From: Micavibrio sp. | GTDB lineage: Bacteria > Pseudomonadota > Alphaproteobacteria > Micavibrionales > Micavibrionaceae | DNA: 64,000 nucleotides | Assembly: GCA_002695035.1 (NCBI GenBank) | Contig: NZNU01000039.1 | Location: forward strand, 1-64,000 | Direction: 5' to 3' | Part shown: positions 54,095-60,376 of the stretch, piece by piece | Layout of the letters: each line of letters opens with the position of its first letter | Numbering within the stretch: the first letter of the stretch is position 1 | Notes under the pieces: model-generated | The model's input: only the letters and a program-made list of their open reading frames with translations | What the model was told of the DNA's origin: nothing | The model's database searches: none | Program-made: the position numbers and the translations under genes

Positions 54095-54784
54095 TTAACC
54101 TAATATTTCGGAGGGGAAAGTATAAATTTTTTTTCCTCCGCTCATATGTATTACAAATTCGTTGTCCATTAATGACTTGATGGCTGGATCCAGTACATCC
54201 AAAGAGCCGGTATAGGTACCAAAGGCTGGCATAATAATGCGTTGGCTGTCTGTTACAAAACAGCGTTTGCGCGTAGCTTTCCCTTTATGACGTATAGTGG
54301 CGCAAGGATGGTAATGTCCGCTAATCTCATAATCCTGATTTTTTTCCTTCGCGATATGACGAAAAATAAGCCCTTCAATATCAAGACTTTCATAAGAGGT
54401 CAGGCCGGGCGGCACAAATCCCCTCTCATGATTGCCCTCAATCCATATGATTTCATAATTTTCACATAGCTGGCTAAAATCATGGCGGCATTTTTCGTCT
54501 AATCTGTGATAGGCATTTTCATCGTGAAAGCTGTCGCCCAGCAATAGTAGTTTAATTGCTTTCGTTTTATGGAGTACGGCATTCAATCGGGAAAGTGTTT
54601 CGCATGTATCATGTGGGGGCACAAAGACGCCATTCGCGACAAAACTTGATCCCTTTTCCAAATGCAGATCTGATACCACCAAAAGATTTTCGTCCTTCCA
54701 GTAAAGACAACCTTCTGGCAACAGCTGGAGTTCATGCCCGCCAAAGGCAAGCTTTTTTGAAGTGGGTTTGTTATTCATTGTCAT
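54095..54784 (-). CDS. pdeM: ligase-associated DNA repair metallophosphoesterase (MPE/PdeM)
   Basis: 229 residues from ATG 54784 (ATG 54778 also possible); the longer upstream frame lies wholly inside the helicase gene and is not homologous. Binuclear-metal phosphoesterase motifs: VVSDLHLEKGSSF, LLLGDSFHDENA, IWIEGNHERGF and ISGHYHPCATIR. In Pseudomonas putida the equivalent Mn-dependent nuclease works with an Lhr-core helicase, MBL exonuclease and ATP ligase. The start overlaps the helicase stop. Confidence 0.9.
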   Translation of the reverse strand: MTMNNKPTSKKLAFGGHELQLLPEGCLYWKDENLLVVSDLHLEKGSSFVANGVFVPPHDTCETLSRLNAVLHKTKAIKLLLLGDSFHDENAYHRLDEKCRHDFSQLCENYEIIWIEGNHERGFVPPGLTSYESLDIEGLIFRHIAKEKNQDYEISGHYHPCATIRHKGKATRKRCFVTDSQRIIMPAFGTYTGSLDVLDPAIKSLMDNEFVIHMSGGKKIYTFPSEILG

Positions 54785-57239
54785 CCATTCCGGCTTCTGC
54801 CAAAAGGTCATGTTCCAAATCTTCGAGCATATAATCTCCGGAATCCTCGCGGCTAATGCTTTCACCGAAGGCCTGCAATACAAGTGGTACAGCCAGAGGT
54901 GAAATTTTATCCAGTTCCCTATAAGATATTTTTCCCTCAATACGTCTTAACATTGCACTCAGGCGGTGCAGATCAATCAGGCCGCCCGCTGCGTCATGGT
55001 AAGCTGCCTGTAGCAAAATATGGTCAGGTTCGTATTTGCGTAAAACATCATAGATAAGGTCAGAGCTAAAGGTCACTTGTTTTCGTGTTTTTTCCTGTCC
55101 TGGATGGCGCCGCTCTATTAATCCTGCAATGACGGCTGCTGTCCTGAAATTGCGTTTCATTAGTGGTGTTTCTGCCATCCATTCTTCCAAATCATCGGAC
55201 AGTATGTCTTGTGAAAATAAATCTTCTATATTTTTGGGCGGTTTAAGTGACCATACGGCCAGAGCGTAATCACTTGCTATAAAGCCCAATGGCCTAAAAC
55301 CTTTGCGCTGCATACGGCGCATGAGAAGAAAGCCCAGTGTCTGGTGTGCGTTCCAGCCCTCGAAGGGATAGGCAACAAGATAAAACTTACCGTTACGGGA
55401 AAAGCTTTCGACAATCAGATTGTCTCTATCGGGTAGGTCGGAGCGCTCTTTCTGGTGTTTTAACCAGTATTTCACAGGCTCGGGCAGCGCCTCCCACTCT
55501 TCTTCCGTCCCTAATATGCCGCGCACCGTATCTGCAAGATGGGATGATAAAGGCATGCGTCCGCCAGCATATGAAGGGATAGAGGGCGTGCCGTCCTTCG
55601 TTTTCGAGACTTGAACATTCATATCTTTTAACCCCTCGAAACGCAAAACCTGCCCGCCGAAGTAAAATGTGTCACCGGGGGAGAGTTTGTTTATGAACCA
55701 TTCTTCGATAGTGCCTAATGTTTTATGACGTAATTTGACCTTCAGGGCGGGGGCTTCCACAATTGTTCCTATATTCATCCTGTATTTGCGGATAAAATTT
55801 TTATCTGAAAGCTGGTAAAGTCCAGCTTTGTTTATTTTAAGGCGTGCAAACCGCTCATAGGTACGAAGGGCATAGCCGCCATTCATGACAAAACCTAATG
55901 TTTTTTCAAAATCTTCCCATTCAAGATTGCGGTAGGCCCAAACCTGTATGATTTCTTCATAAAAGTCCTTTGCCTCAAAAGGGCCTGAGCAGGCGCGTGC
56001 AAAAATATGCTGTGCCAGAACATCAAGCCCCCCATCGCGCGGTTCTACCCCGTCATAATAATCTCTTGATATTGCGGCTTTTGCGGCCAGGCATTCCAGA
56101 TATTCAAACCGTGAGGCAGGCACTAATATGGCGCGGGACGGCTCATTTAGGCGGTGGTTGGATCGTCCGATACGTTGCAAAAGGCGCGATACACCTTTCG
56201 GTGCGCCGATTTGCATGACAAGGTCCACATCTGCCCAGTCCAACCCCAGATCAAGAGAAGAGGTCGCCACCACACAGTCCAGCTCACCGCGGGCCATTTT
56301 CTCCTCGACTTTGCGTCGGATTTCGCGATCCAGTGAGCCATGATGCATGGCAATGCGCAGATTCTTTTCGTTAATTTTCCAAAGTTCCTGAAAAATAAGC
56401 TCGGCTTGCGCGCGTGTATTTACAAAAACAACGCTCATATCCGCGTCGCTGACAGCGTCATAAATTTCTGGTATGGCATAGGTTGCCATATGCCCGGACC
56501 ATGGCATACGGTTTTTACTGGTCAGGATTTCTATTTTCGGCTTTACGCTTTGTGCAAGCTCCACCCTTGCGCCTTTACCGGGACGGGATAGCCAGTCTTG
56601 CGCATTTATCGGGTCAGCAACTGTCGCGGACAATCCAATGCGCTGTGCCTTTGGCGCAAGTGTCGCTAAACGCGACAAATTAAGGGACAAAAGATCACCG
56701 CGTTTGGAGTGCATAAGCGCATGCATTTCATCTATGATGATATAACGTAGATGCGCAAAATATTCAGGCGCCTCCTCGTAAGAAAGCAGCAGGGCAAGGC
56801 TCTCTGGTGTTGTCATCAACATGTGCGGAGGCTTGTTTTTTTGGCGCTGCCTCTTTGATGCTGGCGTGTCGCCTGTGCGTGTTTCAAAGGTGACCGGCAG
56901 GTTTAAGTCCTCAATGGGTTTTCCGACATTGCGATGTACGTCAACGGCCAATGCCTTCAAGGGAGATATGTAAAGCGTATGCAGCTTATGTTCCGGTGGC
57001 AGGCTTTCAAGTATATCGACAAAGCTTGGCAGAAAACCTGCAAGTGTTTTTCCTCCGCCTGTAGGGGCAATTAAAACAACGTCACGCCCCGCTTGGGCAT
57101 CTTTCAAAACATCAAGCTGGTGCGGATGCCAAGACCAGCCCCTCTTCTCAATCCAGCCGGACAGGGGGTGACTTTCCAGATTTTTTGGAAGTGCGGGCTG
57201 ATCCGCCCTATCTTTATACTCATGAACTTGCTTCGACAT
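54771..57239 (-). CDS. ligase-associated DNA repair helicase (Lhr-core type)
   Basis: 822 residues. Helicase motifs: I LIAPTGGGKTLAGF (61-65 GGGKT), II IIIDEMHALMHSKRG, III RIGLSATVADP. Domain 2 has VFVNTRAQAELIFQEL, ATSSLDLGLDWADVDLVMQIG and RLLQRIGRSNHRL. The Lhr WH and core C-terminal domain continue to the end. 3'-to-5' DNA translocase of the four-gene repair cluster. Its start (57239) overlaps the divergent exonuclease start (57222) by 18 bp. Confidence 0.93.
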   Translation of the reverse strand: MSKQVHEYKDRADQPALPKNLESHPLSGWIEKRGWSWHPHQLDVLKDAQAGRDVVLIAPTGGGKTLAGFLPSFVDILESLPPEHKLHTLYISPLKALAVDVHRNVGKPIEDLNLPVTFETRTGDTPASKRQRQKNKPPHMLMTTPESLALLLSYEEAPEYFAHLRYIIIDEMHALMHSKRGDLLSLNLSRLATLAPKAQRIGLSATVADPINAQDWLSRPGKGARVELAQSVKPKIEILTSKNRMPWSGHMATYAIPEIYDAVSDADMSVVFVNTRAQAELIFQELWKINEKNLRIAMHHGSLDREIRRKVEEKMARGELDCVVATSSLDLGLDWADVDLVMQIGAPKGVSRLLQRIGRSNHRLNEPSRAILVPASRFEYLECLAAKAAISRDYYDGVEPRDGGLDVLAQHIFARACSGPFEAKDFYEEIIQVWAYRNLEWEDFEKTLGFVMNGGYALRTYERFARLKINKAGLYQLSDKNFIRKYRMNIGTIVEAPALKVKLRHKTLGTIEEWFINKLSPGDTFYFGGQVLRFEGLKDMNVQVSKTKDGTPSIPSYAGGRMPLSSHLADTVRGILGTEEEWEALPEPVKYWLKHQKERSDLPDRDNLIVESFSRNGKFYLVAYPFEGWNAHQTLGFLLMRRMQRKGFRPLGFIASDYALAVWSLKPPKNIEDLFSQDILSDDLEEWMAETPLMKRNFRTAAVIAGLIERRHPGQEKTRKQVTFSSDLIYDVLRKYEPDHILLQAAYHDAAGGLIDLHRLSAMLRRIEGKISYRELDKISPLAVPLVLQAFGESISREDSGDYMLEDLEHDLLAEAGMDDNE

Positions 57240-58208
57240 GATCTTTATATAGAGCCAATTGATGCGTTTATCGACCCTATGAAACCCTCAAGGCTCGCAA
57301 TTATTACGCATGGCCATGCTGACCATGCACGGCCTGGCCATGACCATGTAATCGCAACGCCTGATACAATAGAAATTATCAAACGCCGCTATGGTGAAAA
57401 TTGTGCCAAAACATTTGAAGCTCTGGAGTATGGGGTTGAAAAGAAAATAAAGGATGTAACCATCTCTCTCCATCCGGCAGGCCACGTGCTCGGCAGTGCG
57501 CAAGTCCTTCTGCAGTATCAGGGGTATCGCGCTGTCATGACGGGGGATTACAAGGCTCGGCCTGATTCAACTTGCGCCCCTTTTGAAGTTGTTCCATGCG
57601 ATTTATTTGTAACCGAGGCTACATTCGGCCTTCCTGTCTTTCAGCATCCCGATTCTGCCGATGAGATCAAAAAACTGCTTAAAGCCCGGGAAGAGCAGCC
57701 AGAGCGTGCTTTTTTAATCGGTGCATACGCGCTAGGCAAAGCGCAACGCGTCATCAAACTTATACGCGAAGAAGGCTATGACCGCCCAATATATATTCAT
57801 GGCGCCCTTAAAAAGCTATGCGAATTTTATCAGGAGCGCGGCATTAATTTAGGGGAATTGCGCTCCCCGACTGGTTTAAAAAAAGACGATTTCCACGGGG
57901 AAATAGTGGTCGGGCCGCCATCTGCGCTTAAAGATCAATGGTCACGGCGCTTTCCTGACCCTGTAGTGGCGTATGCATCAGGCTGGATGACTATAAAACA
58001 GCGCGCGCGCCAAAGTGGTGTGGAATTGCCACTTGTTATTTCCGATCACGCCGACTGGAATGAGCTTACTGAGACTATAAAGGCAACCGGAGCGTCAAAA
58101 ATATGGGTTACTCATGGCCGAGAAGATGCGCTTGTCCATTATTGTCGCAGCATCGGGCTGGAAGCAGAGCCTCTTTATCTGCAGGGCCGCGACGATGAGG
58201 AGGACTAA
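57222..58208 (+). CDS. ligase-associated DNA repair exonuclease (metallo-beta-lactamase fold)
   Basis: 328 residues from ATG 57222. The longer frame from 57093 lies antisense inside the helicase gene and is rejected. The usual N terminus is DLYIEPIDAFIDP, followed by ITHGHADHARPGH (H30, H32, D34, H35) and LHPAGHVLGSAQV; MTGDYKARPDSTCAPFEVVP, EATFGLPVFQHP and SDHADWNEL complete the beta-CASP-like exonuclease. Cotranscribed with the ligase 6 bp downstream. Confidence 0.9.
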   Translation: MNLLRHDLYIEPIDAFIDPMKPSRLAIITHGHADHARPGHDHVIATPDTIEIIKRRYGENCAKTFEALEYGVEKKIKDVTISLHPAGHVLGSAQVLLQYQGYRAVMTGDYKARPDSTCAPFEVVPCDLFVTEATFGLPVFQHPDSADEIKKLLKAREEQPERAFLIGAYALGKAQRVIKLIREEGYDRPIYIHGALKKLCEFYQERGINLGELRSPTGLKKDDFHGEIVVGPPSALKDQWSRRFPDPVVAYASGWMTIKQRARQSGVELPLVISDHADWNELTETIKATGASKIWVTHGREDALVHYCRSIGLEAEPLYLQGRDDEED

Positions 58209-58214
58209 ACCATC

Positions 58215-59798
58215 ATGAAAGCCTTTGCCGAGTTGCTGGAGCAACTGATCCTAACATCCTCCCGCAATAAAAAAGTGGATTACCTGGCACAATATTTTGC
58301 CAAGACACCGGATCCTGACAGGGGTCTGGCACTGGCGGCAATAACACGCGATTTGTCATTGCGCCATGTTAAATCCTCCTTAGTAAAACAAAATGTGCTT
58401 GAGCGCGTGGACCCCAAGCTTTTCGCCCTGTCATATGATTATGTCGGTGATCTGGGTGAAACGGTTGCTCTTATTTGGCCGGAAACAGTAAGCGGTGAAT
58501 TGCCATCCGTAAAAGATTTTATCGCGTTTCTGGAAGATACGCCCAAGGCTGAATTGCCTGCCCTTTTTTCTGACCTTATGGATCTGGCTACACCCAATGA
58601 GCGCTGGGCCATGATTAAGATGATTACCGGAGGCTTGAGAGTAGGGGTTTCAGCCCGCCTTGCAAAAACAGCCCTTGCAAAATATGGCAATGTGGAATTA
58701 CAGGAGATTGAGGAAATCTGGCATGGGCTAACCATTCCTTATCTTAAACTATTTGCCTGGCTTGACGGTAAAACAGATAAGCCCCAAATAAAGCATACCG
58801 AGACCTTTCATCCTCTTATGCTGTCTAATCCCGTAGATGAAATCAAGGATTTTGAAAAGCTGAGTGAGGCAGATTTTGCAGCTGAATGGAAATGGGACGG
58901 TATCCGCGTACAGCTGGTTTTTAACGAGGACACACAGCGTATGTTTTCACGTACAGGTGACGACATATCACACACATTTCCCGACCTGACTGAGAGCCTG
59001 AATGGGGCGGCCGTTTTGGATGGCGAGCTGTTGGTCGGTAAGGATATGGAGCCTCTCCCCTTTAATAACCTGCAGCAACGCCTTAACCGCAAAACCATTG
59101 TAAAAAAACACCTTAAAGATTACCCCGCTTTCGTGCGTGTTTATGACATCCTGTTTGATGGTGAAGAGGATTTACGTACCCTTCCCTGGCAGGAGCGGCG
59201 AGCAAGACTTGAGAGCTGGATGGAATCTCACGATAACAAACGGCTATCCTTGTCTGAGCTTATCCCTTTCAAAAGCTGGGAGGAGCTTAAAAAAATCCGC
59301 GAAAAAGGCGCTGAGGAGCAAGGACATGAAGGCATCATGTTGAAGCGCAAAACCTCGGTTTACGAGCCGGGCCGCCCAAAAGGCCCTTGGTATAAATGGA
59401 AGCGCGATGCACGGCTGGTTGATGCAGTTCTCATGTACGCGCAGCGTGGACACGGTAAACGCTCCTCCTTTTACTCTGACTACACATTCGGGGTATGGAA
59501 AGGAAACGAGATCGTGCCAATCGGCAAGGCCTATTTCGGATTTACGGATCAGGAGCTTAAACAACTCGATAAATGGGTGCGTGCCAATACAATCCAGAGG
59601 TTCGGTCCTGTGCGCGAAGTCAAAAAAGAGCTGGTATTTGAGGTTGCTTTCGATAGCGCACATGTCAGCCCACGTCACAAATCAGGCATTGCCTTACGTT
59701 TCCCCCGCATCAACCGTATCCGTTGGGATAAACCCGCGCAGGAAGCCGAAACCTTGGACGGTATGCAGTTTTTCGTAGAAGGCCAATCAGACTCATAA
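58215..59798 (+). CDS. ATP-dependent DNA ligase
   Basis: 527 residues. N-terminal DNA-binding domain (residues about 1-200), then the nucleotidyltransferase core with K226 in AEWKWDGIRVQ (AMP-accepting lysine). Further motifs are SRTGDDISHTFPDL, AVLDGELLVG, FVRVYDILF and EGIMLKRKTSVYEPG, then YKWKRDARLVDAVLM. An OB domain ends at residue about 520. It seals nicks with ATP and is part of the four-gene repair cluster. The NAD ligase LigA is not in the window. Confidence 0.95.
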   Translation: MKAFAELLEQLILTSSRNKKVDYLAQYFAKTPDPDRGLALAAITRDLSLRHVKSSLVKQNVLERVDPKLFALSYDYVGDLGETVALIWPETVSGELPSVKDFIAFLEDTPKAELPALFSDLMDLATPNERWAMIKMITGGLRVGVSARLAKTALAKYGNVELQEIEEIWHGLTIPYLKLFAWLDGKTDKPQIKHTETFHPLMLSNPVDEIKDFEKLSEADFAAEWKWDGIRVQLVFNEDTQRMFSRTGDDISHTFPDLTESLNGAAVLDGELLVGKDMEPLPFNNLQQRLNRKTIVKKHLKDYPAFVRVYDILFDGEEDLRTLPWQERRARLESWMESHDNKRLSLSELIPFKSWEELKKIREKGAEEQGHEGIMLKRKTSVYEPGRPKGPWYKWKRDARLVDAVLMYAQRGHGKRSSFYSDYTFGVWKGNEIVPIGKAYFGFTDQELKQLDKWVRANTIQRFGPVREVKKELVFEVAFDSAHVSPRHKSGIALRFPRINRIRWDKPAQEAETLDGMQFFVEGQSDS

Positions 59799-59947: not shown

Positions 59948-60376
59948 TTAGCGCGAGACTTTTAGCGCCTGCTCAAAGACTTTATAGCTGTAATCATATT
60001 GGCAGGATGTGGCCTTTTTATCATATAAGGATACAGAATCATCACCGATATAATTATTGTCGGGCATATTATTTGCCTCATCCCAGCCGGCCTTCATAGG
60101 ACGTACTTCACCTGAATTCATGTCCCAGACGGTTTTCAAGGCCTCGCAATTTTTGCGATCAATGGTTGTCAGCTCCACCGAGCAATCGTCATGATTAATT
60201 GTGAGTTCGGCAGTGGTCCGGTTAAATTCAGCGCGCAAAGTCGTAAAAATGCCGCAATCTTCAATGGCCACAAAATATTTGGTATCGGGCAGCGTATCCG
60301 GATCTGTATTCAATATGGCAGAGGTAATCGATTTGGCGTGTTCGGGGAAAACCCGTCTTTCTTCGGCGTCTGACAT
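59948..60376 (-). CDS. hypothetical protein
   Basis: 142 residues, acidic, with four cysteines (EDCGIF, DDCSVE, KNCEAL, TSCQYDY) and no signal peptide or TM helix. No known family. It has a good promoter: TTGACA (60432-60427), 17-bp spacer, TATTTT (60409-60404), and an AAGGAG Shine-Dalgarno (60390-60385) 8 nt before the ATG. Probably monocistronic. Confidence 0.6.
   Translation of the reverse strand: MSDAEERRVFPEHAKSITSAILNTDPDTLPDTKYFVAIEDCGIFTTLRAEFNRTTAELTINHDDCSVELTTIDRKNCEALKTVWDMNSGEVRPMKAGWDEANNMPDNNYIGDDSVSLYDKKATSCQYDYSYKVFEQALKVSR

Follow-up and report, generated by a model that had tools for sequence, protein, structure and literature searches.

We found that the ligase-associated DNA repair cluster in the window, the whole 64,000-nucleotide stretch of DNA analyzed here, is split into two divergent arms whose 5' ends interlock through an 18-bp start-to-start overlap. 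The arms are likely driven by two facing promoters, each lying inside the opposite gene, which would produce leaderless mRNAs with complementary 5' ends. Judged by its sequence, the locus represents the ligase-associated repair cluster already known, here in the divergent layout of Alphaproteobacteria, the class to which the 2.1-Mb source assembly belongs, and in a variant with interlocked arms.

All four genes named in the original prediction were present and adjacent, and each exceeded the curated NCBIfam cutoff of its family. The minus strand carries the Lhr-Core (ligase-associated DEXH box) helicase gene (54771-57239, 822 amino acids; TIGR04121, 1053.7 bits, cutoff 850), whose product also has Lhr winged-helix and DEAD_assoc domains, and the gene for the ligase-associated phosphoesterase (endonuclease) PdeM, or MPE (54095-54784; TIGR04123, 210.7 bits, cutoff 150). 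On the plus strand are the genes for the ligase-associated exonuclease of the metallo-beta-lactamase fold (57222-58208, 328 amino acids; TIGR04122, 450.8 bits, cutoff 325) and the ATP-dependent DNA ligase (58215-59798, 527 amino acids; TIGR04120, 771.4 bits, cutoff 400). The motifs APTGGGKT, HGHADH, KWDG, and DLH...GNHE, which we take to be the catalytic motifs of these proteins, appear intact in the translations. The start of PdeM reads as 54784 or 54778, in either case overlapping the helicase stop, and the ATG at 54784 is most likely the one used; the longer frame at 54095-54940 is a mechanical open reading frame and was rejected as the extent of the gene. PPOX and ABC-F, which flank the cluster in the window, occurred in 4 and 27, respectively, of 35 genomes, the source genome included. 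In an empty-site test for a recent insertion, a cluster-bearing genome of the same genus had the cluster, PPOX, and ABC-F on three separate contigs (C1, C3, and C5). A 142-amino-acid minus-strand open reading frame beside the cluster (59948-60376) gave no NCBIfam or Pfam match at an E value of 0.001.

The coordinates also confirmed that helicase-PdeM and exonuclease-ligase run in opposite directions, but the oddity of this order implied in the original prediction was not borne out. Among 337 genomes sampled from the class, the exonuclease was detected in 87 and the helicase in 115 at the thresholds used. Both genes occurred in 85, where they were divergent within 15 kb in 39 (with 25 of them no more than 400 bp apart, measured between model boundaries), convergent in 2, codirectional in none, on different contigs in 36, and more than 15 kb apart in 8. 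With 39 of the 41 pairs within 15 kb divergent, this is how Alphaproteobacteria commonly arrange the two genes where they lie close together. Outside the class, both genes were present in 6 of 160 genomes sampled phylum-wide, on the same strand in five and divergent in one according to their coordinates. Three of the five same-strand pairs were separated by 1.6 to 1.8 kb, a gap that would fit a ligase, and the other two by 6.6 and 16 kb. Three divergent helicases from one family with genomes of about 1.4 Mb (L041, L042, and L056) scored below the family cutoff and were still paired with an exonuclease; those of L041 and L042 shared 34% and 31% identity, respectively, with that of the window.

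The overlap has the form ATG(N12)CAT (57222-57239), with the exonuclease starting at 57222 on the plus strand and the helicase at 57239 on the minus strand. The helicase start thus lies inside the exonuclease gene, as predicted; the 17 bp stated there is how far apart the first bases of the two genes lie, and the overlap itself measures 18 bp. The two frames are in register, so that codons 1 to 6 pair codon to codon and codon 6 of both genes must be CAT (His). The N termini read MNLLRH for the exonuclease and MSKQVH for the helicase, and M1 and H6 were invariant in four aligned exonucleases.

Of the 107 divergent loci, 43 had exactly the same geometry; their junctions comprised 39 distinct sequences, and removal of near-copies left 16 overlap loci, hereafter the representatives. 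Such recurrence argues that the overlap is neither a chance event nor an annotation artifact. The 143 loci examined comprised the window, two further individual loci, 60 chosen loci, and 80 returned by one search. Twenty of the chosen loci (L024-L043) were picked for their divergent map positions, and two other blocks (L044-L063 and L144-L163) combined carriers from the window's order and from that of genome G217 with the top-scoring ones from the order of G592 and further loci, so the 107 divergent loci among 143 do not represent a frequency. Some loci were near-copies, and two loci (L053 and L119) had the same junction on contigs of equal length. Among the 80 loci returned by the search, 47 were divergent, 33 were without a helicase at the threshold used, and 18 had the overlap; one locus counted as lacking the helicase (L112) had a cut piece of it about 5 kb away. 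PdeM lay downstream of the helicase in all 10 of the 43 overlap loci that were scanned. Divergent loci without the interlock mostly had starts from 8 bp to several kilobases apart, with start codons as chosen, and a few had alternative starts that would overlap.

The overlap occurs in the window's order, in the order of G217, whose members have uncultured single-cell or metagenome relatives, and in a SAR116-type order, where overlap loci reach 63% GC. In the window's order the cluster was patchy, its exonuclease being present in 7 of 142 genomes, and all seven had the 18-bp overlap. Twenty of the 83 carriers in the order of G592 were sampled; the 11 best scoring besides L064 all had the overlap, and the other 9 had none. 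It was also found in a 1.6-Mb genome (L071) from an order in which the other genomes listed measure about 3 to 5.5 Mb. One genome of the SAR116-type order had two exonuclease matches, on different contigs. In the exonuclease tree (112 rows), all 20 overlap rows fell within one 37-row set with a support of 100, which also held Devosia-type rows, an AT-rich group with starts 17 bp apart, and L065, L093, and L097. The helicase tree (72 rows) had a corresponding 29-row set, also with a support of 100, in which 18 rows had the overlap, 7 belonged to the AT-rich group, and 4 fell in neither category; L097 was joined there to long branches, with a program warning. The overlap label required five changes on the exonuclease tree and two on the helicase tree. 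A single origin followed by losses would fit these patterns without being proven by them. The exonuclease of L065, a contig labeled Gynuella sp. (Saccharospirillaceae by that label), lies inside the alphaproteobacterial overlap set and has a TTG start and a 21-bp overlap, which suggests a transfer or a mis-binning.

Could one of the two proteins simply start later, so that the genes do not overlap? Misannotated starts do have precedent, as every one of the 75 divergent overlaps longer than 60 bp in one survey was of this kind, according to the available text of PMC2478687, and the exonuclease of the window has a TTG at codon 3. That TTG would still leave a 12-bp overlap, and the next candidate, an ATG at codon 20, is too late because it sits past the conserved IDP. 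In the window, the first alternative ATG, GTG, or TTG of the helicase comes no earlier than codon 45, and 5 of the 16 representatives have none in the first 80 codons. Since the exact 18-bp ATG-CAT geometry is preserved across distant groups, both start codons look genuine, and a later start is very unlikely. Comparison of the start codons with orthologues, which had been proposed as a check, thus favored both annotated starts. The overlap described here is short, and its exact form recurs in distant groups, in contrast to the long divergent ones reported as annotation errors in the text available from PMC2478687.

With both starts retained, a -10-like box was found inside each gene, directed at the opposite one. 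The probable -10 element of the exonuclease-ligase arm, TATCTT (57209-57214, plus strand), lies inside helicase codons 9 to 11 and ends 7 nt before the exonuclease ATG. That of the helicase-PdeM arm, TATATA (57246-57251, minus strand), lies inside exonuclease codons 9 and 10 and ends 6 nt before the helicase ATG. Among the 16 representatives, TAT was present at -13 of the exonuclease in 12 and at -12 of the helicase in 15; on either side, none of 2,000 mononucleotide shuffles reached the observed count, although these probabilities are not independent because the overlap rows are related. All 14 representatives from orders other than that of G217 had TATATAG. The exonuclease-side box was poor in two loci (L045 and L047), and in the AT-rich order of G217 the overlap was kept but TATATA was not, 20 of the 43 loci with the overlap having TTT ATC as exonuclease codons 9 and 10.

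Codon choice beneath the boxes was unusual on both sides. Exonuclease Ile10 was encoded by ATA in 15 of the 16 representatives, where the codon usage of each gene pair predicts 2.9, and in 23 of the 43 unreduced overlap loci; helicase codon 11, where it specifies Arg, was AGG in 8 of 8 cases versus 25 of 373 elsewhere in the same helicases. The probability attached to this bias treats rows as independent and is only indicative. The boxes were kept in nine loci of 58 to 63% GC (L144-L152), one of which (L144) had ATA at Ile10 though at only 1 of its 35 other isoleucines. One might suppose that these codons serve the protein or an mRNA structure of one gene and have nothing to do with promoters, the more so as the Tyr-Ile pair of the exonuclease is conserved at the protein level too. 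This is highly improbable, since it is the synonymous choice itself (ATA and AGG) that is fixed, on both sides and at a mirrored distance. Seven Devosia-type relatives from the same exonuclease set had TATATA in none of seven cases, and Ile10, present in three, was ATC in all three; this is a partial control only, because residues 9 and 10 have themselves changed there. No helicase was found near the exonuclease in these seven relatives down to an E value of 1e-3, two of them being covered by 664 to 713 upstream bases.

A different reading accepts the overlap as real but denies it any regulatory role: compact genomes tolerate overlaps, and longer transcripts would start farther upstream within the opposite gene. 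It draws on the -35 region, where matches were weak on both sides (3 to 4 of 6), the helicase-side TCGATA being largely explained by a conserved Ile-Asp. It draws also on a generic sigma-70 scan that gave no promoter match at the junction, with a model requiring the final T of the -10. We nevertheless regard this reading as unlikely, given the mirrored boxes at a fixed distance, the rare codons maintained in GC-rich members, the absence of the box in the Devosia-type relatives, and the lack of a Shine-Dalgarno-like site on either side. That each promoter lies within the opposite gene, as originally predicted, is well supported by the sequence comparison, the placement of both boxes accounting for the odd codons. 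Counting against it is a weak terminator-like stem just ahead of the exonuclease box (57193-57206, plus strand), one of 11 such stems found in the region where 8.5 were expected.

Because each box is 6 to 7 nt from an ATG, both mRNAs probably begin directly at their AUGs, without a leader or a Shine-Dalgarno sequence. Indeed, none of the four Shine-Dalgarno-like 4-mers tested occurred at -16 to -4 before either gene in any of the 16 representatives. The pair therefore has the features expected of leaderless genes, though less clearly for the exonuclease and for members of the G217 order. In 78 non-overlap exonuclease starts, with the nearest ATG taken as the start, the same type of box peaked at -13 (11 of 78) and a Shine-Dalgarno-like 4-mer was found in 9, so this gene may often be read from a leaderless start. 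The spacing fits that of alphaproteobacterial leaderless starts: TATAGA and TATAGT boxes lie 6 to 8 nt from the start site (PMC9320726, Table 2), and -10 elements without the final (-7) T are described in the available text of the same paper.

The proposed mechanism is thus one in which the box at 57209-57214, in the helicase gene, would serve the exonuclease-ligase arm, and that at 57246-57251, in the exonuclease gene, the helicase-PdeM arm. One RNA polymerase would cover both promoters, and the enzyme might occupy only one of the two at a time. With transcription beginning at both AUGs, the two mRNAs would be complementary over their first 18 nt and might pair; the predicted duplex energy ranged from -19.8 to -32.2 kcal/mol over all 16 representatives. 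The likely outcome would be two weakly expressed, mutually limiting arms and no strict switch. Mutual limitation is plausible; for five bidirectional promoters of Escherichia coli, no polymerase competition was reported at the basal level in the available text of PMC12825309. Because the starts are shared and each promoter would lie inside the other arm's gene, the arms may not be turned on independently. It is rather unlikely that the interlock is a selected regulatory device.

Control by the SOS response was also considered. The consensus of the SOS (LexA) box is GTTC-N7-GTTC; its exact form occurred nowhere in the window (1.5 expected by chance) and within 300 bp of the junction in none of the 16 representatives, and SOS control through this exact box was rejected.

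The cluster has the same four genes, assigned here by curated family models, as the one that Ejaz and Shuman have worked on, cited in PMC7437997 and PMC10140301. In the text available from PMC10140301 it is reported as an operon, whereas the arms in the window are divergent with overlapping starts. Divergent clusters of other Alphaproteobacteria (39 of the 85 genomes with both genes) share the two oppositely directed arms, but the ATG-N12-CAT interlock is absent from 64 of the 107 divergent loci. Among gene overlaps, the divergent type is the rarest, with 331 of 14,958 in one survey (PMC2174442, available text). Our literature search, which covered the cluster and overlapping, leaderless, and bidirectional pairs and had subscription journals mostly outside its scope, returned no title or opening of an abstract that describes this overlap. 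The overlap carries a cost in codon choice that can be seen in the sequence, renders promoters hidden in an opposite coding sequence directly testable, and offers a first lead on the control of a poorly understood repair pathway.

Leaderless mRNAs are known in Sinorhizobium meliloti (PMC3616915), Zymomonas mobilis (PMC7566282), and Methylorubrum (PMC9320726), and all those mapped in S. meliloti begin with AUG, as far as the available text of PMC3616915 reports. In these alphaproteobacterial cases the start at AUG is documented, whereas here it is predicted from box spacing and the lack of Shine-Dalgarno-like sites; the accessible parts of the three papers describe no interlocked pair. Two opposite start sites close together are also a feature of the bidirectional promoters of Warman et al. 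(PMC12825309), which share a symmetric -10. In an AT-rich sister group of eight loci, the two start codons are separated by 17 bp with a TATA-rich stretch; this arrangement looks like such a shared promoter and would form a natural contrast to the overlap type. A shared symmetric -10 was ruled out in the window, where there are two separate boxes (57209-57214 and 57246-57251). According to the available text of PMC12825309, the opposite start sites of the Warman et al. type flank or fall within one -10; in the window, by contrast, two -10 boxes would flank start sites that cross between them, so that the two transcripts would overlap.
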